The notes under the pieces were generated by a model, which had not been told where the DNA came from, did not search any database, and saw nothing but the letters and a program-made list of their open reading frames with translations. A DNA stretch of 64,000 nt from Isoetes taiwanensis (Eukaryota > Streptophyta > Lycopodiopsida > Isoetales > Isoetaceae). Each line of letters opens with the position of its first letter. Position 1 is the first letter of the stretch. The stretch lies in assembly GCA_021234155.1 (NCBI GenBank), contig JAJEKV010000011.1, forward strand, positions 19,732,677 through 19,796,676, given 5' to 3'. A program made the translations under genes and the position numbers. Below are positions 22,402-43,745 of this stretch, piece after piece.

Positions 22402-25040
22402 GGAATTGTTTTTAGATTATTTTCCTAAGCTTGTTGCGATTCTGGGCATTGGAAAAAATCTCCGATTTTCTAACAATCGGAGCAGTTTTTTCCTCTGTGA
22501 TTTTGGGTTCCCTATCTTTTCGATTTGATTCCTTTGAGAGATTGTAGCTGGCGAGGAGAATCCATGCCACGATTTTTCAAACTACGTTCTGCTTATTATC
22601 CTTTATATTTTTGTACTTGGGGACTTCTTTGATGTGAAGAAAATTGGGATGTTTTTGCTTCATATGGTTCGACATGGCTTATCCGATCCCAATTTACTTT
22701 TGGAAACACCGTATCATGCAGGTGGCTTATGGATCTATAGACTCAAAGCTCCAATTTGTAAGCTCGGGTTTGTTCTATAATCCGGTGCTTATGATTTTTT
22801 GGCTTGTGGTCTCTGCAAAATAATTTTGATAGTAATATGGTCCATGGGATCTAATTGAAGAAACAAGACATATCGATATGGACTCCCAGCCCTGCTATCT
22901 TAAGATTTATCAATGTTATTGCTCTCTTCGGTCAGAACAACTCCATGCTTCAAAGCTCCATGTGACAAAGACTTGCAACGACTTCTTAGGGTGGCATATG
23001 GCCACCGAATTCTAAAAATTAGGTTGCAAGGAGCTACGTTGAGATATGGATATGTGAATTTTCTTTGTTATTTTCTCTATGCTGAAGTTGTTTCCCATAT
23101 CTTATTTTCTTGCCTTGTACGTTCCTCCAAGTTTTGAATTTTCCAAAAAATGGATGAATTGTGTCTCTACTCCATAAGTGCTGAAAATGATTTCCAACAG
23201 AGAACTATGCATCTTTGTTCCTCCAGGCTATATTTTTACAGAGGCAACTTGATTCTTGGCTTTCGCAGAGAACCTGTCTCTGGCAATTGGTTGGTATAGT
23301 AAAGATAAGCTATAGCATCTTCAATTTCTATTAAGCAGCAGCATATTGCCTTAATGGATCTGATAGATCTGGCATGATTCTTGGCATCCATCCTGTGGAA
23401 TTGTCCCCACTTTAGGTAAACCAATCCTTTCTTTTTCTGTTTGATTCTGCCACAGCAAGTTCCCATCTCAAATGGAGTTTTTTGTAAAGAAAAGGGATAA
23501 ATCCTTGCGAGATTCGAGATTGGAAGTCTTTGCACAGTTATATTACATCACCTTCACTTTGGGGATTTTGTGCAACTGAACACAAAATAGGAGATTGCTG
23601 ATAGAGTTGGAACATGCAATCTAAGGAGTTGATTTGGTTGAATGGGCATTTGCACCCTGTGATTTACTCTTTCTGCATAGGTCCTAAAATAGAGATTGTC
23701 ACAGCTACAACTACAATGTATGAGCTATAAAACAAATCCATTGAGTTTTAAATTGTTAAATAGCTTGGACTAAGTTGGAATAGTTGTATATTACGCTCCT
23801 CAATTACTAGGTGTTGAAATGCATATCAATGCTAAATAGCTTGGGCTAAATTGGAATAATGGTATATTGAGCTCCTCAGTTACTAGGTGTTGAAGCACGG
23901 GTAAAAAGAGGATTTGGAGGATAGGTACAATCACTTGCAGAGGATTGTGAAAGCGGGCTGCTAGAAAGGCAATCTGTGAGTTGTATACATGCTCTCTCCC
24001 CCATACATATGGTGTGATTTAAAAATGAGATTGGGCCACTATGTGTCTGGCATGGTTATAAAGAATTAAAATAGAGTGGGATGAGGCATTTTTCTGCACT
24101 TCCTCAACCGACGTGTTTTTTCCTAGTAGATACAATTCCTTTATGATTTGCTGGAAGAGGACATCAATAAAGCATCAGTAATTCCTGCAGCAGAGCTCAT
24201 TGACAAATTGATATTGTCTCTGTGATACGCGTTAAGGATTCTTTTGGGATGAGCATCCATGACAGTCCATTTAGTAGAGGTGCAGGGTGATCGAAAAACC
24301 CACACTCAATTTTCTGCCCCTTCATATTGTTACATTTGAAACCCTGCATTCAATTTTAAAATATGTATCCATTGATGGAAAGATGGGGCCAACATTACCT
24401 CTTAGAGTAAAGTGTCTAAACCCAAGATGGCGATCAAAGGCACAAGTGTGAAAGAAGTTTACTGCATCAGAATGGACTAGGAGGTACTGCAAAGGTACTA
24501 TTAGCTGCCTTTCTGTGTTGCTATTTTATCTATAAGGCCAGACTTCCATAATAACAATCACTATTGCTTATCGTTGTAATGATGCCATTTGTAACACATA
24601 TTCTGTTACTCAATTTTGGTTATATATTAGGCAGTGCAGTTTATATGACAATATTATGATGGGATACGCATAAGTTATTCCATGCCTGTTCGACTCTCAA
24701 ATGCCCAAATGAGATAAATGTAGCTTATTAGGTTTAATATTTTTTAACTGTTGGAAATCCCTCAACCAATCTGAGATGTCATTTTCTTATGATGTTAAGT
24801 TGCATTTTTGGCAAACAATTCCTTGGACTACGCTAGATCTTGCTATAAATTCAGAAATATAACCATAAAATTTGAAAAACCAAGAGCACAGTCTTGAATT
24901 CTCGATGTCCTGAATAATATAACGGAATGGCATTCACCTTATTAATTGGTATGACGTGAAATCAGCAGAGCTGCGTGCTGATTGTTTTTTGCGGATGAAA
25001 AACGTTTCTCCCTGGTTTCCATTATTTGAAAAAGTATTTG
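22402..25040. other. Intergenic stretch with no supported gene
   Basis: Only short frames occur. A diverged tandem pair of about 78 bp begins near 23756 and 23834 (shared AAATAGCTTGG and TTACTAGGTGTTGAA). The distal part leads into the LINE 3' tail that starts the 667-bp duplication at 25.04 kb, so some of it may be degraded LINE body. I could not recognise domains. Confidence 0.45.
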
Positions 25041-25156
25041 ACAGAAAGCTAATACTCCTTTGTGTTATGCAGAACTTTTGCAGTGTGTGGATCAATGTCT
25101 GACTATGTTCCCATGTACTCTTTGTATTCTTTTGAGTAATAAAGATCCACGTTCAT

Positions 25157-25193
<37 letters not shown>

Positions 25194-26378
25194 GGGAACA
25201 GCTAGCCTAGGCAAACAACCATACTAGCAGTCCAAGTTATCTCGGTCAATCCCTTGATAACCTTATCATCCTGTACATTAGCCGAGCTAACTAAAGACAG
25301 TACACCCAACAATGGTCCCAAGTCAAAACGACTTAAATAAGTTACTGTTATCTTTCCTATATAAGCATGCATAGTATCCTTCATGTAGTACAGGACTAGA
25401 TAGTCAAGAAGGATTCATTGCATTCTTATATCCTCATATGATTCTCGTTCCTAAGATCTTTTCATGTACTGTTAAATCAGTGCTTAACATGCACAGTTAC
25501 CATTTTATAACTCAACTACAATCATATATTCTTTATCTTTTATCAAGATTATACATCTACCATAGTTGCTGCACTGTTGAAATTATACCACTTATACAAT
25601 AAGTAAGCATAAAAAATTATGCTATTATATATTTGTGCTTTCATTACCATAATGTATAAAGTATATCCTGTCTTTTTGTATTACAAAATCAGTGAAGCAC
25701 TAGTCATTATGACAGAAGGCTAATACTCCTTTGTGTTATGCAGAACTTTTGCAGTGTGTGGATCAATGTCTGACTATGTTCCCATGTACTCTTTGTATTC
25801 TTTTGAGTAATAAAGATCCACGTTCATAAAAATAAAAAAATAAAAAAATAAAACCCAGGAACAGCTAGCCTAGGCAACAACCATACTAGCAGTCCAAGTT
25901 ATCTCGGTCAATCCCTTGATAACCTTGTCATCCTGTACATTAGCCGAGCTAACTAAAGACAGTACACCCAACAATGGTCCCAAGTCAAAACGACTTAAAT
26001 AAGTTACTGTTATCTTTCCTATATAAGCATGCATAGTATTCCTTCATGTAGTATAGGACTAGATAGTCAAGAAGGATTCATTGCATTCTTATATCCTCAT
26101 ATGATTCTCGTTCCTAAGATCTTTTCATGTACTGTTAAATCAGTGCTTAACATGCACAATTACCATTTTATAACTATATTGTCAACTGCAGTCATATATT
26201 CTTTATCTTTTATCAAGATTATACATCTACCATAGTTGTTGCACTGTTGAAATTATACCACTTATACAATAAGTAAGCATAAAAAATTATGCTATTATAT
26301 ATATCTGTGCTTTCATTACCATAATGTATAAAGTATATCCTGTCTTTTTGTATTACAAAATCAGTGAAGCACTAGTCA
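25041..26378 (+). repeat. 667-bp tandem duplication carrying a LINE 3' tail
   Basis: Unit 1 (25041-25707) and unit 2 (25708-26378) both start GACAGAA(A/G)GCTAATACTCC and end ACTAGTCATTATGACA. They are nearly identical except in the A-rich stretch: about 32 uninterrupted A at 25159-25190 in unit 1, interrupted A/T in unit 2. The 120 bp before the A-run (CTTTGTATTCTTTTGAGTAA, then TAAAGATCCACGTTCATC) look like a plant L1 3' end with polyadenylation signal AATAAA. High identity suggests a recent duplication. Confidence 0.85.
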
Positions 26379-26743
26379 TTATGACATCTTTTTCAGCTTA
26401 TTTTCCTGTCTTCCAAAACTTGACCTTTATAGTGGGTCTTAGCTTGTATGTGACGGATAAACTAAAGATCTAAACTTGAAAAACTTGCTGATATATTTTA
26501 GCATAAAAAACATTTAAGTAATCTGAAAAAACCAGTTCTTGATAACACGTTTTGTCTCCTTTTCCTTGTTGTGGTCGGTAACCAGCTTGCATAAGCTTTC
26601 CATTCTTCAACATTCTGTGTATGATCCTTTACCTTCCTTTGAGCTACAACCTAGCATAACAGCAAAATAGTACAAAGGGAAAAGAAATGCCCAGTACCTG
26701 CAGCCAATCAAGTAAACGTTAGCAATAGGCTTGGTAACGATAC

Positions 26744-27993: not shown

Positions 27994-28005
27994 TGGTATC
28001 AGAGC
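27994..28005 (+). promoter_or_regulatory. Primer-binding site of G1 (initiator-tRNA-Met type)
   Basis: TGGTATCAGAGC is the standard plant LTR-retrotransposon primer-binding site complementary to the 3' end of initiator methionine tRNA. It starts one base after the LTR end. Confidence 0.9.
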
Positions 28006-28158: not shown

Positions 28159-28188
28159 TGGGGGGGGGAGGGGGGGGGGGGGGGGGGG
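28159..28188 (+). repeat. Poly(G) tract in the G1 leader
   Basis: About 29 bases of G with a single A. It could form a G-quadruplex in RNA or the plus strand. Homopolymers of this length are also error-prone in assemblies. Confidence 0.85.
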
Positions 28189-28803
28189 ATAGTGAGTCAA
28201 ATGAACACTAGAGAATTTGGAGTGGAAATTATGCATTCACACCAGGTCGAAGAATCATTCCATTCAGAGATCCCAGCGGAAAATTCGTAACTAGCCACCT
28301 AAGAACTATTGGGGAAAAAAAAATTGGAAGGGGGGATCACCATTAATAAGGGTGGCTCATTCAAAATAGTAATAATGACCAGGGAATATTCTCTCACATG
28401 TATGGACATCTTTCCTTTTTAAATGCCGTTTTAAACCCCTTCTCCTAATTTCACCCTAAATCACCTTATTAGGCCCTAAGGAGATCTCTGACTTAATGAA
28501 ATCTGTTTGATAATCCAAAAGATATGGCACAAATCAAATGCACGACGAGGAAGGTTAGGAGCCCAAGACCAAGGATAAGCATGGCGGAGATTGCAGTGGG
28601 AAGCGGCAAGAAAATTTCGGAGCATCTATGACCAAGACCGAGCAAGGAGCGGAGCAGCTCTGACTCCTCAGACGAGTCTTCCACACCATGGACGATCAGG
28701 CACCAAGCAGCTCGTCATAATTGGCACAGCGAACGGGCGAGACAGTGGATCTAAGGACACTCTCTAAGGGGGTGACAAGCAGTAGCAGCAGCATGAAGAA
28801 CAG

Positions 28804-28990
28804 GTGGCACTTAAAAAGAGGAAGGGCAACGAAAAAGTAGCGAAATGGGAAGAGGAAAGACAAGAGCAGGAGAGAAGGGAGAAAAGATGGGAGGAACAAC
28901 ACCAAGAGAAACGAAGTAAATGGAACCGTGACAGGCCGAGAGGAAAACATGGTTATTCAGGAGTCACGAAGAACCCAAGTCGACTCTGAG
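28804..28990 (+). pseudogene. Charged N-terminal part of the G1 leader protein
   Basis: An open frame of lysine, arginine and glutamate in helix-like spacing (W-E-E-E-R-Q-E-Q-E-R-R-E-K-R-W-E-E). A frameshift near 28950 would connect it to the acidic stretch that continues, in one frame, into the H3-like region at 29096-29635. I infer that the three parts once made one protein, but this region alone is only low-complexity sequence. Confidence 0.4.
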
Positions 28991-29635
28991 TCGGAGGAGG
29001 AGGAGGAAGAAATGGAAGAGCCAATAGAGGAGAAGGAGGAAGTAGAGGAGGAAGTTGGGGAGCCATTGGACCACAACGCTTGACCGCCGTACCCCATGTG
29101 GCTGAAGCCATCAAAGAAGGCAACGAAAAAACAAAAGATGAGAGAGAAAGTCTTCAAGCTGAAGCATGATATAGAATTCGAGAAGAAGAAGTTGGCCTTT
29201 AAAGTATACTTCAGGCGATGGACTAGGTATACCGACTAGTATTGCAAATAGAATATACCAAAGTTCATGAAGGGTGGCAGACTACGGAACAGTTCTAAGC
29301 CCCCTCCATCTCGACCAAGGATGCCAAAGAGTGTCCGTCACGGATCTAACTCCAAGTATAGTCGATCTGTTCGGGAGATCCGGCACTTCCAGCAGTGCAC
29401 AAATCTATTGAATTGAAAAGCACTTTTCGAGCGTCTTCTTCGAGAGGTGATGCAAAAATTCACGACCGACTATCGGGTGACCCCGATGATGGTACAAGCT
29501 TGCCAAAAAGCAGCTAAAGCAAAGCTCACATAGCTTTTTGAAGAGGCGAACCTCTGCGCCATTCATGCCAAACGGGTAACTGTCATGCCCACGGACATGA
29601 ATTTGGCCAGAAGGATCCGAAAAGATAAGATTTAG
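28982..29635 (+). pseudogene. Histone-H3-fold protein in the G1 leader
   Basis: A single frame, without indels, starts with an acidic run (D-S-E-S then eleven mostly Glu residues) and continues from an ATG at 29096 through a basic module (D-I-E-F-E-K-K-K-L-A-F-K-V-Y-F) into an H3 fold. Landmarks are V-R-E-I-R and T-N-L-L (alphaN), F-E-R-L-L-R-E-V (alpha1), F-T-T-D-Y-R (loop 1), Q-K-A-A-K-A-K-L (alpha2), [19 protein letters not shown] (loop 2) and L-A-R-R-I-R (C-terminus). Length through loop 1 equals canonical H3, without the insertion typical of centromeric H3. The tail is not H3-like. Five in-frame stops are TAG or TGA. It sits 1.1 kb downstream of the G1 primer-binding site. Confidence 0.85.
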
Positions 29636-30373
29636 GAAACTTTTTGTGTAATTTTTGAACTATCTATGTATAAATCCCTTGAATTAATATTAGACTTGCT
29701 AAAATTTTGGGACAAAATGGAAAAATAGGTCAAGTTCTAGTGACCCGGATCACTCTGCACCAAACGACATCCCGAAAGAAATTTTTGCTTAAACATTAGA
29801 TTGATGTGGTATAAGTTGGTAGATCATCTAAAAATAACCAAATTTTGCAATCTAGCATCTTATATCAACCAAATAGATCAAATTTCGACCAAAACAGACC
29901 CACCCGGGTCATTCCGCGCCAAACGGCTTCCTGAGAGTCTTGAAAACCCCATCCGCACGGAGTAATCCAATTTGATCCAATTAGGCCAAATTAGACAAAA
30001 AATTACCCAACAAGTTACTCTAACATGTTTCTTGCCTTGTTTTAGTTAGGTTAACTCTTCCAATCAGTTAAATTGGTCTATTATACCTTCAAGAACCTAG
30101 AATTCTCCAAGTGGCAGCCCTGGCACGAAAATCCCTTTGCTTAGGCAATTTTCCAATCCTCTTGCCATCTCCTTGAACCAATTTCTACTCCGCTCTCTTC
30201 TCCAATGGCACATACAAGCTTTATCAAATGGTACAACGACACCAATCACATCAGAAAAATACTAGTGAAACAGCCTTCCAAATGTTCGATCATCTCTTTG
30301 ATCTTCATGCAATACTGTCTAGGACACCCTTCTCTATCGACATCATGTCCGATATGACCAACAAGTTCTACCT
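29636..30373 (+). other. G1 internal sequence without recognised domains
   Basis: AT-rich non-coding-looking sequence. Two copies of a phrase like GACCCGGATCACTCTGCACC (29748) and CACCCGGGTCATTCCGCGCC (29907) resemble a phrase in the G2 LTRs (GCCACCCGGGTCATGCC, 32074 and 43530), which fits membership of one element family. Confidence 0.4.
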
Positions 30374-30692
30374 TTGGAAGTAACCATCCCTCCAAGGGGA
30401 GGAAAACGGGACTCTTTGGAAGCGCTCAGTCAAGTGCTGGGTAAGAGTGCAAGGGTCAAGAACCAGATTTGGATAGGATCGGGAATATGCCAGATTATAT
30501 GGGCTTCTAAACATTCAGCACTTTCGCACGATTACTTACGTATTAATGGGATATTTAATGTTCCGCTTAGCCATCAACCCTTGGAGAAACTCTGCCTAGT
30601 TCAGCTTGCTATGCGTATGTCGTATTACAATTGCCATATACCAAGTTCCGCCTCACCATATCTATATGTAAACTGTTTGTGCTTCTCAATAC
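30374..30692 (+). pseudogene. G1 internal coding relic, possibly ORF-A-like
   Basis: One of the plus-strand frames has F-R-T-I-T-Y-V-L-M followed about 12 residues later by N-P-W. G2's ORF-A has Y-R-T-F-T-Y-V-L-V followed about 16 residues later by A-P-W. It lies downstream of the H3-like region, as ORF-A does in G2. The match is short. Another frame here is open for 107 codons without any known motif. G2 inserted at 30692/30693 and cuts this region off. Confidence 0.35.
30688..30692. repeat. G2 target-site duplication, left copy
   Basis: AATAC, repeated at 43741-43745 directly after the right LTR. Five bases is the normal size for Ty3/gypsy integration. Confidence 0.9.
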
Positions 30693-32282
30693 TGTGACGC
30701 TCCCAGAATATATACGACCCCCGGCCGTATACATACGAGGACTTTCCCCTCCCATGGCGACCATCGCGCCACGAGCAGGGCCCTCCATCTAACCCGGGCC
30801 GTCTACGTAGAGACGCTCAGGTGAAGGACACGGAGGGGTCATTCGGCCCACGCCTTCGATGGGCGCCTACGTCGCGGAAGCATGAATACAAGGGTTAGCA
30901 CACAACATAAATCATATATAAGTGGCCACCACGAAGGGTGGCGCATCCATCCAAATATTAACAACACAGAATATGCATCTAACTAAGAAAACACCCAAAA
31001 GCCCAGGTTCTACCCCGGCTCAGACACTAGTGGGGAGCGACTGACGGCTGGGTCTCAGGAGATCAGCAGACCGAATCTTGGCATGGCGTTGGCTGGCATA
31101 GAACATCGGCTAGGGTTGTCCACTCCATCCGCCCCTCATGTGCACACTTTGCAGATGGGTCGATTCACGCTATGGCTTCGCTATAGCCTTCCGGAGACGC
31201 AGACTCCAGGGATCACCCTTTGAGTCTACTCCAGGTTCATGACACCTGGTCCGATGAGGCAGGTCGGGGAGGCGTCCCCTTCCAGGATCACAGCGGTGTT
31301 GTGGGTGAGCTAGAGAATACGTGCCGCATCATCGACCCCCGCATCCGTACCCGACTTACTCACCCTAATTCTACTCAAAGTGCATGGTGTCCCATACGGG
31401 TCACACCACTACACCCAGGGAGTGTCAGACCCATACCCGGCCCTCCACGTGACCGGCTATCAGGCCTAGCCCACTGTAGAAGTCTCAGGAGCCTTTTATG
31501 CTCGTGCAAGACCCCACCCCCTACTTCACCACTGTGTCCCTTGTCTGGTGCTAAGCCAGACCATAGTGTCTATGACCCGGTGGGCTCTTGCGCACAGGCC
31601 GAAACTAGTAGGGTGTTAAAGGACTACTAGGAGCATTCTATACTCAAGCTCAGAGGCCTCTACCCCCTCAAGTAATCCCCATTTTTACGAGAAACTACTA
31701 AACTAACTCATAGAGACATCGACCATTCCATCTGAGCATCATTCATAATTGAAAAGTGTTCCTAATTACCAAAGAAGGGTTAATCTCACCCAAAACCAAC
31801 CGAGAAAAGGATACTAGAGTATTATTCTACAATTTGCAAGTTAACTACCACTAACCGAGTTTCGGCTGGACCCGTTGTCAAGGGTGCTTCCATGGTGTCT
31901 TTATCTTGGGGTAGCAAATGACAGTAGAGGGTATCTTGGCGATCCGGGGACTAACAAAGAATCGCTTCTTCTGAAAGCCACCGCTACTCCGGGCGCTTTC
32001 TTTGGGTCGAAATTGGGCTGATATGAGGATGGCGCTTCCCTTTGGTGGCCTAGTTTAGCAATCCTCATGCTAGCCACCCGGGTCATGCCAAATGGCGCCT
32101 TCCTACTATGGATTGACTTAATCACATGTCTTTAGATAATTATCCTTTATAATCCGGTTAACATAGCTAATTAAATCCATTGTGGCCAACCCCCTAGGTT
32201 ATCATACCCCAGGTGGCGTACCTATACCGAATGACGGGTTCAATATTTATACGTACACTATATAAATACTTGGAACGTCACA
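30693..32282 (-). repeat. G2 left LTR (3' LTR of the element)
   Basis: Begins TGTGACGCTCCCAGAATATA and ends GGAACGTCACA. It aligns over its full length with 42184-43740. The two differ by many substitutions and small indels, so the insertion is not recent, or the right copy is poorly assembled. Confidence 0.93.
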
Positions 32283-32295
32283 TTCTCCCCTCCTT
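32283..32295 (-). promoter_or_regulatory. G2 polypurine tract
   Basis: AAGGAGGGGAGAA on the minus strand, abutting the 3' LTR. It is the expected plus-strand primer for reverse transcription. A nearly identical tract, AAGGTGGGGAGAA, abuts the G1 3' LTR at 44255-44267. Confidence 0.9.
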
Positions 32296-32853
32296 AGAAT
32301 TTATGCTGTCCTCAGCATTGGGGTTAGTTCGAAATGTACAAAGAAATACATTACGAAGGAAAGTAATCCGTTATATTTTTTTTTTTTTCCGAAAAGTAAT
32401 GCATATCTTCCAACTTTAAGGTTTGCAAAACATTTCAAGCACCGTGGTGCATTCAACATGATTATCATAATCAAACAGTTTAAGGATCGAAATCCAATAC
32501 CAACATCAGTGGAATGATAACAAAACATGAAAGCAAAACAAAACTGAAGAGGTCGGTTCATCAGTAACCCTCTAGCATGGGCGTGGCACGTCATCGCTTC
32601 TTGGCCCGCACATGTCGGCGTAGACGAGACATATGATGAAGTTGTGGTTGAAGGGACCACCCCCTTATAATAATTAAAGAACATACTATCTATTAGGGAA
32701 CCTATCATGTCTACGGTTTGCGGTTCCTTGTGGCATAGGCATTGGTCAAGTTCCCATTGCAGCCAAGAGGAAAGCGGTCTATCAACTATATGCTTTTGAC
32801 AGTACACCACGTCCTAGAGAACAGAAGGTGATCTCATCATCGGTTACTTGTTA

Positions 32854-33372
32854 TTACTTACTATGCATCTTGCCCTCTGAGGCGCTATCCCTAAGACTCA
32901 AGCTTCTAAGCTTACCGCCGACTGCGGGGTTGATAGCATCGTTGATGGTGCGGCCTTGAGATTCGCGCATGAAATCCGGATAATGTTTGTCAAGGTCTAT
33001 CTTCATTACCCACGTAGCATCTTCAACTGGTAAGTGTTTCCACTTAACTAAGTATTGCAACATTTGAGTCCTTCTGGTTTGTTTGTAAGCTCGGTCAAGA
33101 AGAGCTTCAGGCACTATTTCGAGTTGCTCTTCTGTCATTTCTAGGAGGGTTGGGGTCTCCAAAACCTCCTCCGGATCAGGGGTGTGTTGCTTCAGAAGAC
33201 TCACGTGAAAGACCTTGTGGATCTTCAAGCGGGGTGGCAATTCTAAGCGATATGCCTGTTCTCCAACGCGCTCAATAATCTTGAATGGTCCAGCCCATCT
33301 GGGGGCTAACTTTTTGCAGTTGCCAATCTTAAGCTTGGCTTGCTTCACTTTAATTTTAAGCCAAACACCCAC
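32854..33372 (-). pseudogene. G2 integrase C-terminus and chromodomain
   Basis: The frame opens with L-A-P-R-W-A-G-P-F-K-I-I-E-R-V-G and Y-R-L-E-L-P, then I-H-K-V-F-H-V-S-L-L-K, the standard end of gypsy integrase. The chromodomain follows: E-A-L-L-D-R-A-Y-K, Y-L-V-K-W-K-H-L-P-V-E-D-A-T-W and K-H-Y-P-D-F. This places the element among the chromoviruses, whose chromodomain is thought to guide integration to marked chromatin. This segment itself is open for 172 codons. Confidence 0.93.
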
Positions 33373-33404
33373 CTGAAAAACGCGTGGGGTTCTGTGCTTA
33401 TCGG

Positions 33405-34730
33405 CTATGCTCTTCGACGATCGCTAAATAAGTAGCCCGAACTTCTTCGACCGAGGCACGCATCTCCGGGGAGGAGTTTTTGAGAAACTTCGACCTTAGA
33501 GACAGGATTATGCCACGTGTCTGGAGTAAGACATTGGTAACCATAGTTTATCATAAAGGGAGACATTCTGGAAGACTCCTGTTTCATGCTGTTATAGGCA
33601 AACTCGACCAGATAAATATAGTCGCCCCATTGTGATTGCTTACTCCACACATAACTTCTTAACATATCCTCTATAATACGATTTGGTAATGCGTTACCCG
33701 ACCATCCGTTTGAGGATGATATGCTGTACTCATAGCAAGCTTGGTCTGAATGGTGGCAAAGAAATCTTTCCAGAATGCACTCACAAATTTGGGGTCCCTA
33801 TCTGATACAATTACCCGTGGCATTCCGTGCAATCAAGATCTCCTTGGCAAATAGGAGAGCAATATCAAAGGTCTGTATCCGGGTAATGCACGGCCGGGGC
33901 AAGAAATGGGCCATCTTCGACAATTTGTCGACCACAACCATTAAGGCATCATACCCCCGGAGAGTTCGTGGAAGGCCGACAATGAAATCCATGGTTATCA
34001 CCTCCCATTTGGCGTTAGGCACATCCAAAGGTTGGAGCTCGCCTGGAATCCTTAATCGCCAAATTTTGGTTTGTCGACACACCGACAATCGCTTAATGTA
34101 CCGGCAATGTCCTTTTTATGGAAGGCCGAAATAGCCGGATCGGATCTTAAAGTAGGTCTTCATAAACCCGGCGTGTCCAGCTATAGGGCTATTGTGTGTG
34201 TCATGAAGAATAAGCTTCCGTACTCCTGAAGTCTGCGGCACACACAACTTATCCTTGTGATATAACAAGTTGCCCTCTTTCTTATAGGCACGAAAAGCGT
34301 CGCTTCTGCATCGGACGGTGGGCTTCCTTAGCCAAACTATTCCAAATGTCGAGAATTCGGATCCGTGGCCAAGGTCTGCGCTTATCTGTTTCCCAAACTC
34401 ACTAGTGAGCGTAGAAATAGCATTACAATGGGTTCGGGTTACTAAAGGATGGCATGACAATGCATCCGCAACCACATTGTGCTTGCCCCGCCTATACATA
34501 ATCTCGAAATCATACTCCTCCAAGAATTCCATCCATCTTCTTTGACGGAGATTGAGATTTGGTTGGGTGGATAAATAACGGAGACTTTGATGATCCAGTA
34601 TCCAATTGGAATCTTCTACCAAGAAGATAGTGTCTCCATATCCGTGAACACGGACAACGGCTAACAATTCCCCGATCATGAGTAGGATATCGCTGCCTGT
34701 CTCATTCATCTTCTTTGAATCGTGAGGCAA
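33405..34730 (-). pseudogene. G2 RNase H and integrase, frameshifted
   Basis: 34730-34116 covers the RNase H end (D-H-Q-S-L-R-Y-L-S-T-Q, then Y-R-R-G-K-H-N-V-V-A-D-A-L-S) and the integrase zinc-binding start (H-D-T-H, G-H-A-G-F-M-K-T). 34088-33798 is the integrase core (W-E-V-I-T-M-D-F-I-V-G-L-P, then D-A-L-M-V-V-V-D-K-L-S-K-M-A-H-F). 33665-33405 is the core's end (F-A-Y-N-S-M-K-Q-E-S-S-R-M-S-P-F). Each junction is a frameshift or stop. The element cannot make integrase as it stands. Confidence 0.9.
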
Positions 34731-34837
34731 TTACCCTCCCTCCTGCATTAGGACTCCACCGGGTGGCAATTTTACGGCATCTGTCGCCACTAGCTTATCC
34801 CCGCTCGGATCGGGTAATGTGAGAACTGGTGCTGATG

Positions 34838-36125
34838 TTAGGGCATCCTTAAGCTGCTGGAAACTCTGGCTGAACTTTCGCCTTCCAAAGGGTCCATCCA
34901 ATCTTTCACCTTCTCATGCTTTGTGAGATTTGTAAGAGGAGCTGCAACCTTCGCAAATCCTTTACAAATTTTTGATAGTAGCCCCGCTAATCCCAAGAAA
35001 CTCCGACTTGAAACATTCCCCGGAATAGGCCATTCCCTTACGGCCTCTATCTTTGCGGTGGTCTGTAGCAATTCCTCTGCGGAAATGATATGGCCTAAAT
35101 AATCAACCTTCGGAGTGGCGAACTTGCACTTAGAGAACTTGGCATAGAGTTGATGACGTCTCAGCTTTTGTAGGGCCAATCTAAGATGTTTCTCATGTTC
35201 CTCAAGGGTTTTACTATAGATGAGAATGTCGTCGAAGAAGATGACAACAAAATCATCCAAGTACTGTAGGAAGACATCATTCATTAGTCGCATGAACGTT
35301 GCTGGGGCATTAGTTAATCCAAATGGCATAACTGTAAATTCATAATGCCCATACCGAAAAGTCTTGAAAAGCGGATTTATGGATGTCCTCCTCCTTGATC
35401 CTTATCTGATGGTATCCGGAGCGTAGATCAATCTTTGAGAAATACTTAGCCCCTTGTAACTGATCCATTAGGTCATCTGGCCTAGGCAAAGCATAGCGAT
35501 TCTTGATGGTATGCTTGTTAAGTTGCCGGTAATCAATACACATCCTCAGCGAGCCGTCCTTTTTCTTAACGAAGAGAATAGGAGCGCCAAAAGGCGAAAC
35601 ACTAGGTCGGATGAAACCTAGGTTTAGTAGCTCTTGAAGTTGCTTCTTAAGTTCTGCCAATTCGGGAGGACTCATACGGTACGGGGCCTTGCTAGTAGGC
35701 TTGGTACCCGGCTCTAAAGCTATTTCACATTCCACCCCTCTAAAAGGAGGAAGCTTCTGAATCTCATCTGGGAAAAGGTCACCAAATTCCCGGAGAAGGC
35801 GAGCAATCCCTTCTGGCAAGGTATCGATTACTTGCTTTGGTTTAGCACCTGACTCTATGGACGCAAGGGAAATGATGCAGAGGAGCTTTTCCTTGCGTAT
35901 AGCTTTATCCAACTGTCTAATGGACATAGACTGCATGATAGGGTTGAAGGGTTCACCTTTAATAGTCACGCGGGCTCCATTGGCTGCGTCGAAGGTAACT
36001 TCCCTCTTCTCGCAGTCTATGTTGGCTTTTGCGGATGCCAAGAATTCCATACCAACAATGAGGTCATATTTACCAATGTCCATCAACTCGGCACCCAAAG
36101 CCACTGGTGCACCTGGCAACTGCAT
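34838..36125 (-). pseudogene. G2 reverse transcriptase
   Basis: 36125-35340 holds the end of the protease region ([13 protein letters not shown]) and RT fingers and palm: [23 protein letters not shown], then [14 protein letters not shown]. 35329-34838 continues after a frameshift with [12 protein letters not shown] and the catalytic box F-F-D-D-I-L-I-Y-S, the plant gypsy form of Y-x-D-D. Then comes F-L-G-L-A-G and the RNase H approach. One frameshift near 35335 separates the two halves. Confidence 0.93.
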
Positions 36126-36213
36126 CTTAAGATTGATGCGTCGGCCATGAGTATGCCGGACCTTACCATCGGCTAGAGTGACAGGGCCTTGGTCGAGACC
36201 TTAATGTTTCAAG

Positions 36214-36525
36214 TCAGAAGACCTGAGCCATTCTAGGGGAAGCAAAATTATGGGTACTTCCCGTATCCATAAGAATTACAAAAGGCTTACTGTCTACTTG
36301 ACCTATGGTGGAAATGACAGCAGGCTGACTTTCGGCATTGCCGGTTTCTATAGCTGCAAGAATATGAGACGCACCATGAATATACTCAGGAGCCTCGTCG
36401 GCCGCCGGTAGGGTTGTCTCCAGCTCGTCCCAATCGAGGTCAGCCATGGCCAGCTGGGCAGTCTGCGTAACATAAGGACAAGTTGTGCATAAAGTGCCCC
36501 TGGCCGATACATACATCAGTAACAT
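36214..36525 (-). pseudogene. G2 aspartic protease
   Basis: Contains F-V-I-L-M-D-T-G-S-T-H-N-F, the D-T-G/S active-site motif of retroviral-type proteases in plant gypsy elements. The start of this frame overlaps the end of gag in another frame, near damaged cysteines that may be the gag zinc knuckle. A stop separates it from the RT frame, which carries the protease's distal half. Confidence 0.88.
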
Positions 36526-37658
36526 GCCTTATCCCTGAGCTGTTCTCGGGCCTCCTTAGGAATAGACTGTAAGAGGTTTCGTACTTCCTTGCCGACATTG
36601 CTCTGTTTGTCAGCTGTGCTGAAAGTAACTTTCTTTTCCGGCCGGCTATACGAGTTCTGTTGAGAAGGGCCCGGACTTGGCGAACGGGGTTTGTATGGTG
36701 TGGCTGGCCGGGGCTGCGAATAAGGAGTAGGACGCGGATACTGATTTCTTGGTGTGTCCTCCTCGAGGCTCAATGCCTTAGCCTCGGCCTCCGCAACTGA
36801 TTTTGGGTCTATGGCTTTAACCATCCGTTTGATTGATGGGGCCAACCCTTCAATATAACCCTCTACGGCTCTCTTTTCATTCATTCCTGGAACATACAGC
36901 CTCAAACGCATAAACTCATCAGTGTAAGCCTGTACCGACATACCCTTCTGCTCCAACCTATAGAAGGTCTGAATCTGCTGGCATTTGTGCGCACGAGGCA
37001 CATAATGCGACTTGAACGCCTTTGGCTTAACTTCCCCGGTTGCATCTCGCTCCCCGCCCGGATGCTTGGCCCCTCGCATAGCCCTTCCCACCAAATACGG
37101 GCAGCTCCCCGTAAGGTTGGTGGTGGCAACCTTTTCTGTATCCTTCTCTGTCATTCCATAAGACTTCCCAAACTCCTTCATCTCATCCAACCAGGATTCG
37201 GCATTTAAGCCGCCTCTGGATTTTCCATCAAACTGGGCCAATTTCCTATTCTTCCATATACTAGTTATAGTCAGATCAACCGCCTTACGGTACTCTTTGT
37301 CTCGACGCTTTGCATGGTCACCGCCGATACCGATGAACCCAAGACACCGGGTGGTTGATCGTGAGGAAGTGGCACTATCCTTAGAGGAACTTCTGTGACG
37401 CTTTTAGCATGAGGCCTCCTGGGTGCGCACAGACTAGCTCCGTGGGGAGATGGTCACAGTGCGTGTGGACTTCGGTGGTAGCGGAGGTAACTCCGGTCCA
37501 TCTTCCTGGGTTTGTTGCGGTGGGTTGGCATGCAATACGTAGGCCTGCTATTCGCCTAGCTGCCTTTTCATTAACATCAGTTCCTGTTCAGGAGTCAGCC
37601 TACTGGCGTTGGAGGGTGTGTGCCAAGCGGCGTTACGGGCACCGTCTAAATCGAGCAT
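36516..37658 (-). pseudogene. G2 gag
   Basis: An ATG at 37658 (M-L-D-L-D-G-A-R-N-A-A-W) opens a frame that runs to 36516 with two in-frame TAG codons near 37545 and 37435. The capsid-like part has W-L-D-E-M-K-E-F and L-E-Q-K-G-M-S-V-Q-A-Y-T-D-E-F-M-R-L, then Y-I-E-G-L, the retrotrans_gag pattern. A proline-rich stretch follows, and the frame ends near K-A-C-Y, where a zinc knuckle should begin. The protein would package element RNA. Both TAG codons could be C-to-T changes of CAG. Confidence 0.85.
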
Positions 37659-37895
37659 GAGAAAGGTATAAGCATATTTATAACAGATAAATTCTTACAA
37701 ATGGTAGCATGTTGAGCAAAAAGGGTAGAGAGAGAACACAAAGGGAATTTATTATAAAAGGAAAAACTTTGCTATTACAGTTTCACACCAAGAGTCGGTA
37801 CAAGAGTATTATACAAAGACAACATGATACAACTAGAACATAGAGTGAGCTCACAACAGCATGGAAACAAAAAAACGAAACTCGAAAAGTCCGGC

Positions 37896-38360
37896 CTAGG
37901 GGTTTGCAAAGGGGTACAGAATTGAATAGCGAACACTTTCACGCACAGCCCTAACGAGCTTGTAGCATGCCCAGGCTTGGACAATCACTGGTTGGTATTC
38001 CCATGTTGGGCTAACAATGAGAAGATTGAAAAGCCTTCGCAGAGCATAGAAGAGTTGCCACAGGTGGTCATTGGCGTCCTCGAAAGCCTCGTGCCTGCTC
38101 ATACTCCAATAGTCCCAGGTACGGCACAGGGTCAGCTTCAGGTCCTCAAAAGCTCTGTCCCTAAGAATATTAACTATCTCCAACCCCTTTTCAGCATCAT
38201 AGGGTTCTCCTGGTGGCGGGGGTTCCATCTCATAGCCTTCATCCCATTCGGGATATTCGCCATACCTCTGGCCATAGTCCTGCTCTGGCGGCCCAGGGTC
38301 ATCCCTCCTTATCATGTCTGTAATCCTCTCCTCATATTCCCAGAGGGTTTCTTCTGCAAG
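37896..38360 (-). CDS. G2 ORF-B, 139-codon frame upstream of gag
   Basis: An open frame begins with an ATG at 38315. It has an acidic, proline-rich start (D-D-P-G-P-P-E-Q-D-Y-G, E-W-D-E-G-Y, P-P-P-P-G-E-P-Y) and a helical C-terminal half rich in W, L and R (T-W-D-Y-W-S-M-S-R-H-E-A-F, H-L-W-Q-L-F-Y-A-L-R-R-L-F). The frame stays open upstream to a good 3' splice site, TTGTCTTGCAG, at about 38358. It may therefore be a downstream exon. I know no family for it. It lies between ORF-A and gag on the same strand and shows codon-like composition, which suggests it is a real element gene. Confidence 0.5.
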   Translation of the reverse strand, partial: LAEETLWEYEERITDMIRRDDPGPPEQDYGQRYGEYPEWDEGYEMEPPPPGEPYDAEKGLEIVNILRDRAFEDLKLTLCRTWDYWSMSRHEAFEDANDHLWQLFYALRRLFNLLIVSPTWEYQPVIVQAWACYKLVRAVRESVRYSILYPFANP

Positions 38361-38575
38361 ACAATTGAAATGAATATAGAGGGGTGGATAATTTTGTTAT
38401 AGACCAACTCGAATAACCAGCAAAACCCATGATAGAAGGAATAATTTTCAATTGTATTCATAAAGATAGTAATTACAATCGATGGAAAGAAAGATATATC
38501 ATATTATAAAGTGGCTAAAGAATTTGCCAAAATTCCACAATCATACGCAATACAGAAATGCGTAGTACAATTAAT

Positions 38576-39976
38576 TTAAGAGCTAGGTCCTCCCTCTTCA
38601 TCCGTAGGCCTAGGAGGTGGTGGAGGCGGCCGGTGTTGCAGCAGAGTCACCCCGGGGTCTACTGTGGCAGCCGCAAGAGATGCAACCTCTGGTGGATAGG
38701 CAACGGCCAATGGGGCTGCCGTGAGAAGCTTCATGCTCATCCAGGGTGCAATATCCTGACCCAAGGCCGTCAGGGCAAGATCTCGTCGCACGAGTACATA
38801 AGTAAACGTACGATAGGGGAGCTTCTTGTGGCCGGCCAGTGTAGAGAGAGCACGGAGGGCCCACCACGAAGCTTCAGCCTCCGGCCCTAAATCCCGGGCT
38901 ATAAAAAGGACTTGCCCCTGTCGAAAGGCTGACAAAAAGAAACGGGTAAGGTGGTTGCCCGATACCTTCCCTTGCGGGGTCTCTAATGTGGCCACCTCCT
39001 TATCCAAATCCATGGAAACCTCCTCTTCCTTAAGTTCTTGCTGCTCCTCCTTCACATGAGCAGGGTTATGATATAAATCCTCTCCCTCGTCATCTGAACC
39101 CGAGGGAACCTCAACCATATTAATATTTGGGACGTGAGGTCCCATAGCCGTGAAGGCATCTGGTGAGGGCTGAGAGGTTGGCTCCTGCATCACGAAGTCC
39201 CGAAGCCGTAGCAATGTCTCGGCGGGTTCGATAGTCTCCTGGCGGAACTGGAGCAGCTGCTGCACCTCCGAAGGTAGCTCAATAGAAGTGAAGTCGATGA
39301 AGTCATCCATACAATACTCTGCAAGCTCATATAACACGTGGTCTTTACGCTTGCGCCTAAATCCAGCCACCATGTGATAAGTCCAGATAATGTCATCCAA
39401 GAGAAGATATTCTTGCCCTTGGTGATAAATAACTGGAAGGCCATCCAGCCCTGACAAGCCTATAGCTTGCTCACGGCGTGGTGGCAGCTCTTCCGCCAAC
39501 TGCTTCCAACGGGCAAAGTCGCCCATCCCTATGTGTTCGTCTTCCCCCTCCTCGGAAGACTCAGGCAATTTGCCTTTCTCTACATGCAAGGTTTCATCCT
39601 CGACGTATTGGTCCATGAGGATGGCTAGGGCGAAGGCAACCTCAAGGTATTGCCGCCCCTGATGCTGCACCACGGGCAGGTGCTTGCCCCACCGGAGCTT
39701 TCCCTTTAGGACATCATATGCATGAGTATCTCCCCCGAGCATCTCCCGGACTACCTCCCGCTCCAGATACAGTTGGGGAGGATCCCCAAGAGGAATACAC
39801 AGAGGGAGCATCTCCTCCCTGTAGAAATCCAAAAATCCGGCGTAATCTGGGTGCCTCTGCATGTTGGCAAGGAGATCTAGGCGCTGGCATAGCAAAGGCC
39901 GCAGCAGGTCGAAAGGGACCTGCGGATCCCATTGCTCTCCGTCATGGTACCAGGCGACAAGGTCAGCGGCGGCCAT
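38576..39976 (-). CDS. G2 ORF-A, intact 466-residue protein of unknown function
   Basis: The only long undamaged frame in G2. The ATG at 39976 has a strong context (GCGCCATGGCC). No signal peptide or membrane segment is seen. Residues about 100-122 and 180-202 repeat one motif, L-P-V-(V/I)-x-H-Q-G-x-x-Y-L, suggesting two copies of a small domain. Acidic linkers follow residues 132-148 and 293-325. The C-terminal part has W-W-A-L-R-A-L-S-T-L and Y-R-T-F-T-Y-V-L-V-R-R-D-L-A-L-T-A-L-G, and the end is a proline run. I know no matching family. It lies upstream of ORF-B and gag on the coding strand. Its openness beside broken gag-pol is notable. Short similar stretches occur at 30.4-30.7 kb and perhaps 18.3-18.6 kb. 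Confidence 0.7.
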   Translation of the reverse strand: MAAADLVAWYHDGEQWDPQVPFDLLRPLLCQRLDLLANMQRHPDYAGFLDFYREEMLPLCIPLGDPPQLYLEREVVREMLGGDTHAYDVLKGKLRWGKHLPVVQHQGRQYLEVAFALAILMDQYVEDETLHVEKGKLPESSEEGEDEHIGMGDFARWKQLAEELPPRREQAIGLSGLDGLPVIYHQGQEYLLLDDIIWTYHMVAGFRRKRKDHVLYELAEYCMDDFIDFTSIELPSEVQQLLQFRQETIEPAETLLRLRDFVMQEPTSQPSPDAFTAMGPHVPNINMVEVPSGSDDEGEDLYHNPAHVKEEQQELKEEEVSMDLDKEVATLETPQGKVSGNHLTRFFLSAFRQGQVLFIARDLGPEAEASWWALRALSTLAGHKKLPYRTFTYVLVRRDLALTALGQDIAPWMSMKLLTAAPLAVAYPPEVASLAAATVDPGVTLLQHRPPPPPPRPTDEEGGPSS

Positions 39977-40159
39977 GGCGCTAGAAGGGAGGAGAGAGGA
40001 AGAGAAACAATTGAAATGAACTTTAAAAGTCCTTTTAACTCCTTTTTATTTAGGCTGACGTCAGCATTAACACAAAATAAATAAGTTTTTAAATACAAAA
40101 TAAAAAGTTTTTATTAAATACCCAAAAAAATATTTACAATGCGAGCCCTCACAAATATG

Positions 40160-40662
40160 CTAAGGATGCTCCCCCCGAATCCTGCGGGTGAGGGCTAAAT
40201 CCTTAGGCATTATGGTTACCCTCTTTGCGTGGATCGCGCAAAGATTGGCGTCACCGAAAAGTGCCACCAAGTAGGCTTCAGCAGCCTCTTGGAGTGCCAA
40301 AATTGCAAAGGTCTGGAAACGGAGGTCGGTCTTGAATCAAGGCTGCGATCTCGTGCCACCCTCTCACGGAAGGGTAGCTTCCGTGATCGGCCGCTGTGTA
40401 GACTTCGGAACTTGGCGGATTTCCCTTAGAAGGCCACGCGCACCGGTCGGGGCACCGGCGAGGTTTCCTTTGTGGGGCGGGTTTTGCGGTGCCCCTTCGG
40501 TCTTGGCACCGTCTTAGCCCCAACAAAATCGGGAGCTATCCACCCGCTGCTTGTCTCTCCACCGAGCTGGTATTCTTGCCAAAAGCCCCGCATCTTTAGT
40601 TTCTCCTTGTATTGATCACGGTCTTTTCGGGCTAAACCCTTCCTCCGGTGCTTAATGGTCAC
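40160..40662 (-). pseudogene. Histone-H3-fold protein in the G2 leader
   Basis: On the element's coding strand, an ATG at 40662 opens a basic N-terminal part (A-R-K-D-R-D-Q-Y-K-E-K-L-K-M-R-G-F-W-Q-E-Y), then a K/R/P-rich tail ending P-V-P-R-P-V-R-V-A. After a frame change near 40427 come R-E-I-R and K-S-T (alphaN). After more disruption comes [38 protein letters not shown] and R-R-I-R-G-E, then a stop at 40160. This last part is very close to canonical H3. Two or three frame breaks and TGA codons stop it as written. It lies about 1.5 kb after the primer-binding site, before ORF-A. Confidence 0.85.
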
Positions 40663-42169
40663 ATGTTACGTTGGGGTTGGGCCGACCCACCCCCCCCAGC
40701 CCCTCCGTCCTGCGGGTTCAGCCGGGTCCCGCCGATCCCTCTCCTCCCTGTTCAAGCTTCTCCCGTTCCTCCCGGACTCTCCTCGAGATCTTCCCGAATC
40801 TGAGCAAAATGTTGGGTTTGCGCTTGGCGAAGCTCACCGGCCTGGTACCGAGGCCGCAAACCCATATCGACTGTATGGTCGCCGATAATCTATCTTTGAT
40901 CGGGATTTCACCCCAAATAAAACGTGGTTATCCTCGTCCCCAATCCGGTATGGGGAACCTCAATTGCCCTCGCCATCGATGACCGCAGCCGCCGCCCCCC
41001 GAGGTACTGTACTCTCTTCCCCTAGCCGCCGATTCGCGCCTCAATCTCCGATGGTCGCCTTCCTTGGCCAAGCCTCGATACGACGGGCCGCCTGATGTCC
41101 TCCTCCTGTGATGCCCTTCCCCGTTCGAGGATAGAATTTAATGAGCATCATGACCATGTCGCTGCTCGACAATGGTGTAGGAGAGTCGGGCGAAGATTCA
41201 AATTCTGATCGGGAAGGGCTCTAAGAAATGATAGATAGGATAGGGGATCCTATCGTTATTCTCAAACCCGCTTTACTAGCTCATCTAGGAGCATGTCAAT
41301 GAAGGCCGGTCTCAGAGCCATGTACCGGGGCGATCATGGCATAAATCTCCACTATGCTCAAAGTAGAAGGGTCCGGGCGCTTGGTATTCGCCATAGCTGT
41401 GGCAATAAGGTCTAGGAAGGCGACAAAGGAGGCGCCGTGACGACGAGAAGGCGGCAAGGGAGGCGCTTAGTGTTCCCAAGACACAAGGGCGGGCAAAGCA
41501 AGGTCAAGTCCGATGTGGCGGCGGGCGGCGCTCTCAAGGCCGGAGGTGCCAAGGCAAGGCAGAACAAATAACAAGAAGAAATTTTAAACGGCCAGTTAAC
41601 TTTTGAAATTTTAAAATTTTCCTATTAACTTTTTAATTTTATTATTAAAAAAATAATTATACGGCAGAAATACGCGAGGCATACGGTCGGGCGCCGGCTG
41701 CATTATACGTGCTCCCGCCTCGGCCGGGTTCGCCGAAAAGCAAGCGGCGCCTCGAAGTTGACTGGCGGCCCGCGTTGACTCCGTCGACGGTCGGGCGCCG
41801 ACGCATTTTCGGCTCTTCTACCGCGGATCGCAAGACGACAAAAAGCAAGCGGCGCCCGAGTTGGTTTTCGGGCCTGCCCTTGACCATTTTTCGCCTGGAG
41901 ACGACCGTTCTAGGGTAATTCGAGTATGTCCGATCCAATGGACGCAACTTCTCCGTCATTTGAGCTACCCACTGACATTTACAATTCTTCCAATTCTTGG
42001 GCCCTCCAAATAAGCCTATCCTTCTTAAAGCTACAATTTCCTAATTTAACCTAACACCTAACCAAACAACAAAGAGGACTAACAACACATTAACTTAGCC
42101 TCCTCCTAACTACCGCGTGCTACGAAGTTAGTGTTTGGCGGTGCTATGATTTCGAGCAACCGAAATCAC
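40663..42169 (-). other. G2 leader, GC-rich, no further gene recognised
   Basis: On the minus strand, frame-continuous sequence rich in R, E, G and P precedes the H3-like ATG (for example E-E-R-D-R-R-D-P-A-E-P-A-G). It may be an N-terminal extension of that protein. The rest, to 42169, has only short frames on either strand. Base composition is much more GC-rich than the flanks. Confidence 0.4.
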
Positions 42170-42181
42170 GGCTCGATACCA
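42170..42181 (-). promoter_or_regulatory. G2 primer-binding site, one base deleted
   Basis: The minus strand reads TGGTATCGAGCC. The initiator-tRNA-Met site is TGGTATCAGAGCC, so one A seems lost. It lies about two bases from the inner edge of the 5' LTR. Confidence 0.8.
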
Positions 42182-42183
42182 CC

Positions 42184-43740
42184 GCGGACGCCCGAGTATA
42201 TATATCCCCCCGTACCGTACATATACGGGACTTTCCCTCCCATGGCGACCATCGCCGCCCGAGGCGGGGCCCTCCATCTAACCCGGCCGCCTACGAGAGA
42301 GACGCCAGTGAAGGACACGGAGGGGTCATTCGCCCACGCCGATGGGCCGTCGCCGCGAAGCATGAATACAAGGGTTAGCACACAAAGATAAATCATATAT
42401 AAGTGGCCACCACGAAGGGTGGCGCATCCATCCAAATATTAACAACACAGAATATGCATCTAACTAAGAAAACACCCAAAAGCCCAGGTTCTACCCCGGC
42501 TCAGACTCTAGTGGGGAGCGACTGAGGCTGGGTCTTAGGAGATCAGCAGACCGAATCTTGGCATGGCGTTGGCTGGCATAGAACATCGGCTAGGGTTGTC
42601 CACTCCATCCGCCCCCCTGTGCACACTTTGCGATGGGTCGATTCACGCTATGGCTTCGCTTATAGCCTTCCGGAGACGCACTCCGTGGATCACCCTTGAG
42701 TCTACTCCGTGTTCATGACACCGGTCCGATGAGGCGGCCTGGGAGGCGCCCCTTCCGGGATCACAGGCCGGTGTTGTGGGTGAGCTAGAGAATACAATGC
42801 CGCATCAGCGACCCCCGCATCCGTACCCGACTTACTCACCCTAATTCTACTCAAAGTGCATGGTGCCCCATACGGGTCACACCACTACACCCGTGGAGTG
42901 TCGGACCCATACCCGCCCTCCACGTGACCGCTATCGCCTAGCCCATTGTAGGAGTCTCGGGAGCCTTTATGCTCGTGGCAAGACCCCACCCCCCTACTTC
43001 ACCACCATTGTGTCCCTTGTCTAGGTGCTAAGCCGCACCATAGCGTCTATGACCCGGTGGGCTCTTGCCACGTGCCGAAACTAGTAGGGTGTTAAAGGAC
43101 TACTAGGAGCATTCTATACTCAAGCTCGAGGCCTCTACCCCCACAAGTTAATCCCCAAGCTTTTGCGAGAAACTACTAAATTAACTCATAGAGACATCGA
43201 CCATTCCATACAGAGCATCATTCATAATTGAAAAGTGTTCCTAATTACCAAAGAAGGGTTAATCTCACCCAAAACCAACCAGAAAAGGATACTAGAGTAT
43301 TATTCTACAATTTGCAAGTTAACTACCACTAACCGTAGTTTTTTGGCCGGACCCGTTGTCAAGGGTGTGCTTCCATGGTCTTTATCTTGGGGTAGCAAAA
43401 TGTGTAGAGGGTATCTTGGCGATCCGGGGACGAACAACAATCGCTTCCCCGAAAGGCCACCGCTGCTCCCGGGCGCTTTTTGGGTCGAAATTGGGCTGAT
43501 ATGAGGATGGCGCTTCCCTTTGGCATGCTAGCCACCCGGGTCATGCCAAATGGCGCCTTCCTACTATGGATTGACTTAATCACATGTCTTTAGATAATTA
43601 TCCTTTATAATCCGGTTAACATAGCTAATTAAATCCATTGTGGCCAACCCCCTAGGTTATCATACCCCAGGTGGCGTACCTATACCGAGTGACGGGTTCA
43701 ATATTTATACGTACACTGTATAAATACTTGGAACGTCACA
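42184..43740 (-). repeat. G2 right LTR (5' LTR of the element)
   Basis: Aligns with 30693-32282. Its inner end has decayed (GCGGACGCCCGAG in place of TGTGACGCTCCCAGA), while its outer end is intact (GGAACGTCACA). Many one- to three-base gaps relative to the left LTR cluster in GC-rich parts and often fall at CAG or CTG. Confidence 0.9.
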
Positions 43741-43745
43741 AATAC
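43741..43745. repeat. G2 target-site duplication, right copy
   Basis: AATAC, as at 30688-30692. Confidence 0.9.

Follow-up and report, generated by a model that had tools for sequence, protein, structure and literature searches.

Mobile elements are commonly assumed to rely on the core histones of their hosts. In this study, a 64,000-nt stretch of the genome of the quillwort Isoetes taiwanensis (contig JAJEKV010000011.1, positions 19,732,677 to 19,796,676 of the forward strand; hereafter "the window") was analyzed, which contains two long terminal repeat (LTR) retrotransposons, G1 and G2, each with a region encoding a histone H3 fold. It is probable, judging from the sequences, that the retrotransposon lineage to which they belong encodes, as its first open reading frame (ORF1), an H3 variant whose N-terminal tail is very long and by which the chromatin of the element would be altered. 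The nearest precedent that was found is a hAT DNA transposon of the fungus Pyrenophora tritici-repentis, which carries the H3-like gene H3L (PMC3538342). Nearest in spirit would be the DNMT retrotransposons of dinoflagellates and charophytes, which have likewise taken in a gene of the host epigenome, although the captured gene encodes an enzyme and not a core histone (PMC5890265).

The hAT element resembles the quillwort elements in that (i) it is a mobile element in which a gene similar to H3 is accompanied by another ORF whose function is unknown, (ii) there are insertions in the histone tail and (iii) H3L is described as distinct from both H3 and CENH3 (PMC3538342). It differs in being a DNA transposon with terminal inverted repeats, present in 26 very similar copies for which drift was considered (PMC3538342), whereas the quillwort elements are LTR retrotransposons that form two diverged families, with H3 as the first gene and its fold under purifying selection; instead of a hAT transposase and terminal inverted repeats they contain LTRs and gag and pol of the Ty3/gypsy type. 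Plant chromoviruses are likewise chromodomain-containing Gypsy LTR retrotransposons of plants, including lycophytes, but the quillwort elements carry ORF1-H3, ORF2 and ORF3 upstream of gag, and the available portion of the chromovirus description mentions no histone gene (PMC3350952). Plant VANCs are element-coded proteins directed against host silencing, a role that is proposed below for ORF1; in that work they are described by way of their target DNA and not as histones (PMC12859917). A full-text literature search, with subscription papers and preprints outside its reach, found no retrotransposon-borne histone among the papers listed. A mobile element with a captured H3 is already known, and what is new here is the element class, the diversity and the evidence for function. 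An H3 gene under selection in a retrotransposon lineage would represent a new weapon against chromatin silencing.

A tblastn search of the window with a plant H3 query revealed two matches above chance: one at 40429-40169 on the minus strand, in G2 (66% over 88 residues, E 1e-27), and one at 29258-29629 on the plus strand, in G1 (44% over 124 residues, E 3e-26). The third-best match had an E-value of 1.9. Both H3-fold regions reported in the initial annotation of the window are real; chance resemblance to H3 is ruled out by these E-values and by the existence of the family described below. Both stretches lie past the primer-binding site on the coding strand of their own element, in agreement with that annotation. 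The starts of the genes are located further upstream than it gave, at ATG 28524 in G1 and at ATG 41394 in G2 (the latter start is matched by the relative L028; individual copies are cited below by such numbers). The features of the two elements, in window positions, are as follows:

30696..43740, minus strand: G2, an LTR element of ~13 kb with both ends (LTR pair 91% identical, TG..CA ends, 5-bp duplication)
30691-30695 and 43741-43745: target-site duplication AATAC, flanking both ends of G2
42187..43740, minus strand: 5′ LTR of G2
30696..32282, minus strand: 3′ LTR of G2
42171..42181, minus strand: primer-binding site of G2, TGGTATCGAGC, just inside the 5′ LTR
40160..41394, minus strand: ORF1 remnant of G2 (start MANTK..., tail insert, H3 fold; relatives L028 and L035)
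38576..40045, minus strand: ORF2 of G2, an open frame of 489 aa, from a family without recognised function
37896..38396, minus strand: ORF3 of G2, an open frame of 166 aa, no recognised family
36440..37403, minus strand: gag of G2, broken (the homologous frame of L013 matches Ty3_capsid and Retrotrans_gag)
34838..36528, minus strand: protease and reverse transcriptase (RT) of G2, in pieces (L013 homologue: RVP_2, RVT_1)
32854..34730, minus strand: RNase H, integrase and C-terminal chromodomain of G2, in pieces (Chromo, E 1.7e-8)
27994..28005, plus strand: primer-binding site of G1, TGGTATCAGAGC
28524..29635, plus strand: ORF1 remnant of G1 (start MAQIKCTTRK, tail insert, H3 fold, stop codon at 29633-29635), broken
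30272..30405, plus strand: stretch of G1 with homology to the sequence that immediately precedes ORF2 in L047 (75% over 135 bases)

With its LTR pair, primer-binding site and target-site duplication, G2 has the hallmarks of an LTR retrotransposon, and its order on the minus strand is 5′ LTR, primer-binding site, ORF1, ORF2, ORF3, gag, protease, RT, RNase H, integrase and chromodomain. The placement of H3 between the primer-binding site and gag, as first annotated, was retained, but in G2 the gene is not adjacent to gag, since the frames of 489 and 166 aa intervene. ORF1 of G2, in which the matched fold occupies 40169-40429, is broken by stops and at least two frame changes (the latter read by eye), and everything from gag to the chromodomain is in broken pieces; ORF2 and ORF3 are still open although the rest of the element has decayed.

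ORF1 of G1 is also broken, by two in-frame stops within the fold and by frame changes upstream of it. The open copy L050 aligns with it in three frames, at 28524-28637 (E 0.011), 28786-28941 (E 0.036) and 29069-29629 (E 8e-71), and matches the start at ATG 28524, the piece that contains this start being weak when taken alone. The likeness of G1 to L047 ends at 30405, where ORF2 would be expected to start, and G2, which begins at 30696, is located at this truncated end. No gag or pol of G1 was detected in the window with the G2 proteins or the ORF2, gag and protease-RT pieces of L047 as queries; the significant matches of the L047 pieces all lie inside G2.

The assembly (1,658,258,908 bases in 1110 contigs) was searched with the Pfam Histone profile, and the best 150 of 8705 first-look candidates were scored (such candidate numbers, here and below, are not copy counts). 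About 15 of the scored matches are host-like H3 (the eight rows examined out of the first 15 were all canonical), and 135 are non-canonical. No stop was present inside the match in 130 of these 135, which are top scorers and not a fair sample. Twenty regions of ~10 kb each were hand-picked from the 135 rows, partly for long frames. All of them contain element genes downstream of H3 on the same strand, namely ORF2 (18 regions), ORF3 (16), gag (18) and RT (19); only ORF2 and ORF3 were found within the stretch of L012, and L010 lacks ORF3 and gag. The primer-binding-site motif TGGTATC(A/G) occurs upstream of ORF1 in 15 of these 20 relatives. For annotation this is a warning: nine tenths of the scored histone matches are not host-like, and the 20 of those that were read are element genes. 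Both regions without ORF2, L013 and L019, are shorter elements in which gag follows the H3 gene with no ORF2 or ORF3 match.

As a control, elements were also chosen by their RT. This search gave 27279 first-look candidates; the 141 that were scored each showed 93% or more identity to the query. Every third rank from 3 to 30 was taken (n = 10), and these ten represent close relatives of the query element only. In the stretch read for each element (5.2 to 1.6 kb upstream of RT), H3 was found on the same strand in eight of the ten, with a fold free of stops in seven of these eight and split by a frame change in L037. The view that H3 is an inherited gene of the element and not the product of two chance captures, put forward in the initial annotation, is supported by this result, and the contrary expectation that most family members would lack H3 was contradicted. 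Two recent captures of host pseudogenes are ruled out by the occurrence of the gene at the same place in these eight elements. By its sequence context, the H3 gene occupies a constant position in the examined copies, the first after the primer-binding site.

The frames of L013 matched the Pfam families Ty3_capsid, RVP_2, RVT_1, RT_RNaseH, rve (E 8.7e-7, under the curated cut-off of that family), integrase zinc-binding and Chromo, and the chromodomain end lay within the fetched stretch in three of the 20 regions. On the basis of the order of gag, protease, RT, RNase H and integrase, and of the chromodomain, the elements are classified as Ty3/gypsy LTR retrotransposons of the chromovirus type.

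The ORF1 protein (~340-460 aa) consists of an H3-like start, a tail insert of ~230-340 residues and the histone fold. In 11 open copies of subfamilies A and B it measures 434-459 aa from the methionine used, the fold being the C-terminal 97 residues. Copies of the G1 type were read from a search with the G1 fold (8043 candidates, best 150 scored); the 149 scored matches outside the window's own copy showed 70-78% identity and 10 had an internal stop. Twelve such copies were read, with an ORF1 of 368 residues in L050 and 338 in L040. Six of them (L048-L053) begin M-A-R-T-K-Q-T-(A/Y)-R-K, and the first ten residues of L050 are identical to those of host H3. L040 begins M-A-R-T-K-S-T-A-R-K, L041 and L044 have K-Q-T-Y-R-K in frame with no M-A-R-T ahead of it, and L042, L043 and L045 have no such start in frame. 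G2-type copies (the window copy and L028) begin M-A-N-T-K, subfamily A mostly M-P-R-F-K-L-T and subfamily B mostly M-E-x-x-K-Q-V-Y; to judge from these few letters, they are probably altered H3 starts. About the first ten H3 residues are retained in L048-L053 and L040, and fewer in A, B and the G2 type. A T-G-G-K-like piece precedes the fold in most A copies. Comparison with host H3 by eye showed that the A-R-K27-S stretch is missing from A and B copies, in which K36 is replaced by R; with the K27 stretch absent, the canonical set of tail lysines (K4, K9, K27 and K36) is incomplete. ORF1 is, in terms of its sequence, an H3 variant and not a canonical H3.

The Pfam Histone profile matched L023 (E 3.2e-42, 144.1 bits) and L050 (E 3.6e-28, 98.7 bits) above the cut-off of 26.4 bits, and the closest PDB sequence was 7ux9_E, Histone H3.3, which we take to be a plant H3.3. 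Contact positions of H3 with DNA, H4 and H3′ were compared with host H3 in 28 rows of A, B and the G2 type (fold identity 80-90%) and 12 rows of the G1 type (62-69%). In these 40 rows, R49, R63 and R83 are invariant where present, as are the H3-H3′ positions 108, 110, 113, 122, 123, 126, 129 and 130; R69, R72, K115, R116 and T118 vary in one to three rows each. Systematic differences at the H3-H3′ interface are confined to position 107, where every one of the 40 rows has A, G or S instead of T, and position 106, which is E in all G1-type rows, plus one R116W. The G1 type also lacks K56 and K79. It follows from this comparison that most residues predicted to contact DNA, H4 and H3′ are kept. 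A core histone encoded by the element, in which DNA-contact residues are conserved, could also serve in cDNA packaging, with ORF1 and host H4 coating the reverse-transcribed DNA before integration. This role is quite unlikely, given that only ORF1 matched a histone family among the frames submitted to Pfam, and host H4 would therefore be needed at the particle.

Ratios of nonsynonymous to synonymous substitution (dN/dS) were obtained from Nei-Gojobori counts. For 12 A/B copies they were 0.014-0.086 in the fold and ~0.07-0.25 in the insert (pairs whose dS is unsaturated and ≥0.3), and for the fold of 12 G1-type copies 0-0.085 (pairs whose dS is unsaturated and ≥0.2); the zero values stem from L048-L053, which were picked for equal scores, and their identical folds are no evidence. 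Synonymous sites were saturated between A and B (dN 0.11-0.14) and between A/B and host H3 (dN 0.10-0.16). Among the 28 pairs of the eight RT-chosen copies, 17 were saturated, 10 with unsaturated dS ≥0.15 gave 0.026-0.149 and one close pair gave 0.20. L035 and its nearest copy differ by a dN of 0.034 at a dS of 1.46. Nearest pairs with dS below 0.2 showed higher ratios (0.15-0.24), as expected if dead copies drift. The checks of frame and dN/dS proposed in the initial annotation thus had a positive outcome: many copies have an open ORF1 frame, and these ratios indicate that it is under purifying selection. A captured host H3 that is amplified with the element but has no role would fit the broken state of both window copies, and the fungal H3L was read by its authors as possibly drifting (PMC3538342). 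Such a passenger is very improbable here, because purifying selection is seen also in the RT-chosen copies and the gene has been retained in two families that are 34-54% identical in their gag, protease and RT pieces.

The two families were compared by profile. The tail insert is common to A, B and the G2 type (hhalign E 1.6e-35 and 2.8e-43), but the non-H3 parts of the G1 type gave hhalign probabilities of 0.5% and 2% against it. A module of 18 residues that had been thought to link G1 and G2 was not upheld by this comparison; as proof of common origin it is also rejected on the ground that the G2 relatives L035, A and B differ at its aspartates. Since that argument failed, support is drawn instead from the common ORF2 and gene order. 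Downstream stretches were read in two G1-type copies. L047 contains a frame of 440 aa that is related to ORF2 (hhalign, 97.7% probability and E 1.7e-12), followed by gag (34-50%), protease (47%) and RT (51% identical to G2), and L046 gave no ORF2, gag, protease or RT match within 5.9 kb downstream. The same gene order is therefore present in one of two G1-type stretches, in a family that is, by its pol sequence, distant from G2.

In the fold tree (constructed without the L037 row and without G1 and G2 of the window), the G1-type folds form one clade (99/96 support), and the best tree does not join them with the G2 type; placing all element folds in a single clade costs 1.27 log units and is not rejected (p-AU, approximately unbiased test, 0.336). 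Two independent captures of H3, one in the G2-type and one in the G1-type lineage of related elements, can be proposed tentatively on the basis of this topology and of the unrelated inserts, against which stand the common ORF2, the gene order of L047 and the p-AU value; they would be compatible with any role of the protein.

The G1-type clade is sister to Arabidopsis CENH3 (78/84 support) and has a stretch E-I-R-H-F-Q..T-N-L-L in common with it. These likenesses would suit centromere targeting, in which at least the G1-type protein would be a histone similar to CENH3 and would guide the element to centromeres. The tree support is weak, both branches being long, six G1-type copies begin like canonical H3, and host CENH3 was not seen among the 150 scored matches; centromere targeting is accordingly rated as unlikely.

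ORF2 (represented by L023 for NCBIfam) gave nothing significant in Pfam, NCBIfam or PDB sequences, and neither did ORF3 and the tail insert in Pfam or NCBIfam. A protein-database search with ORF1 returned 4029 matches, of which the best 120 listed cover at most 39% of the query, and the G1-type insert had no relative among 36 candidates. ORF2 had one relative, P0121 (472 aa, 42% identical over 89%). This protein is encoded on an ENA contig of 3374 bases, a hint that the lineage occurs outside this assembly.

The role proposed for ORF1 is as follows. The protein would pair with host H4 and enter nucleosomes, putting an element-made tail into chromatin. Such nucleosomes would form on element DNA, either on fresh cDNA or after insertion, and would be hard to convert to silent chromatin, since most of the tail on which hosts place and read marks has been replaced; the element would stay transcribable. 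Escape of element DNA carrying ORF1 H3 from silencing may be the effect, a suggestion that we advance with reserve. The broader picture, that of an old and successful lineage writing its own chromatin with a nucleosome-forming H3 that wraps at least part of its DNA and whose replaced tail escapes the usual marking and reading by the host, is more speculative. Since the fold is constant across the families and the insert variable, the activity most likely depends on residence in the nucleosome. The same contrast, together with the constraint on the A/B inserts reported above, would also fit a chromatin tether, i.e. a nucleosomal ORF1 protein whose tail binds Gag, ORF2 or integrase and brings the integration complex to host chromatin. 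The tether is a doubtful candidate, as the elements already possess an integrase chromodomain. Escape from silencing would rank first among the possible roles and the tether second, with centromere targeting and cDNA packaging lower. A lineage with H3 under selection would also supply a natural collection of H3 variants whose tails contain inserts of ~230-340 residues and that apparently are still nucleosome-capable.

Several observations weigh against escape from silencing by an altered H3. (i) The inserts of the two families are unrelated, and so they have no tail activity in common. (ii) Loss of the marked lysines is not general, because L048-L053 retain K4 and R8-K9 and L035 retains K36; general loss of H3K9 is ruled out by these R8-K9 copies, and a simple K9-loss account does not, on sequence, cover the G1 type. 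(iii) Fold-core positions 65, 82, 84, 88 and 89 are changed in the G1 type. (iv) Two of the ten RT-chosen elements have no H3 in the stretch read (ORF3 only in L034, nothing recognised in L036). (v) ORF1 begins 570-721 nt past the primer-binding site in nine A/B copies, and each of these leaders contains 3-7 upstream ATGs (12 in the G1 leader). (vi) The A/B and G1-type copies used for dN/dS were top scorers, for which little amino-acid change is partly built in; the eight RT-chosen copies therefore weigh most in the evidence for selection.

Some further features of the window were recorded. A long G-rich run lies within the G1 leader at 28160-28190. On the plus strand, 48756-49064 is a broken frame that by eye presumably resembles a plant PPR protein, and two fragments at 50944-51280 and 52030-52160 are ~72-81% like the LTRs of G1 and G2, possibly as solo or broken LTRs. 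Upstream of G1, at 25033-26386, there is a direct tandem repeat with a unit of ~690 bases (95% identical).

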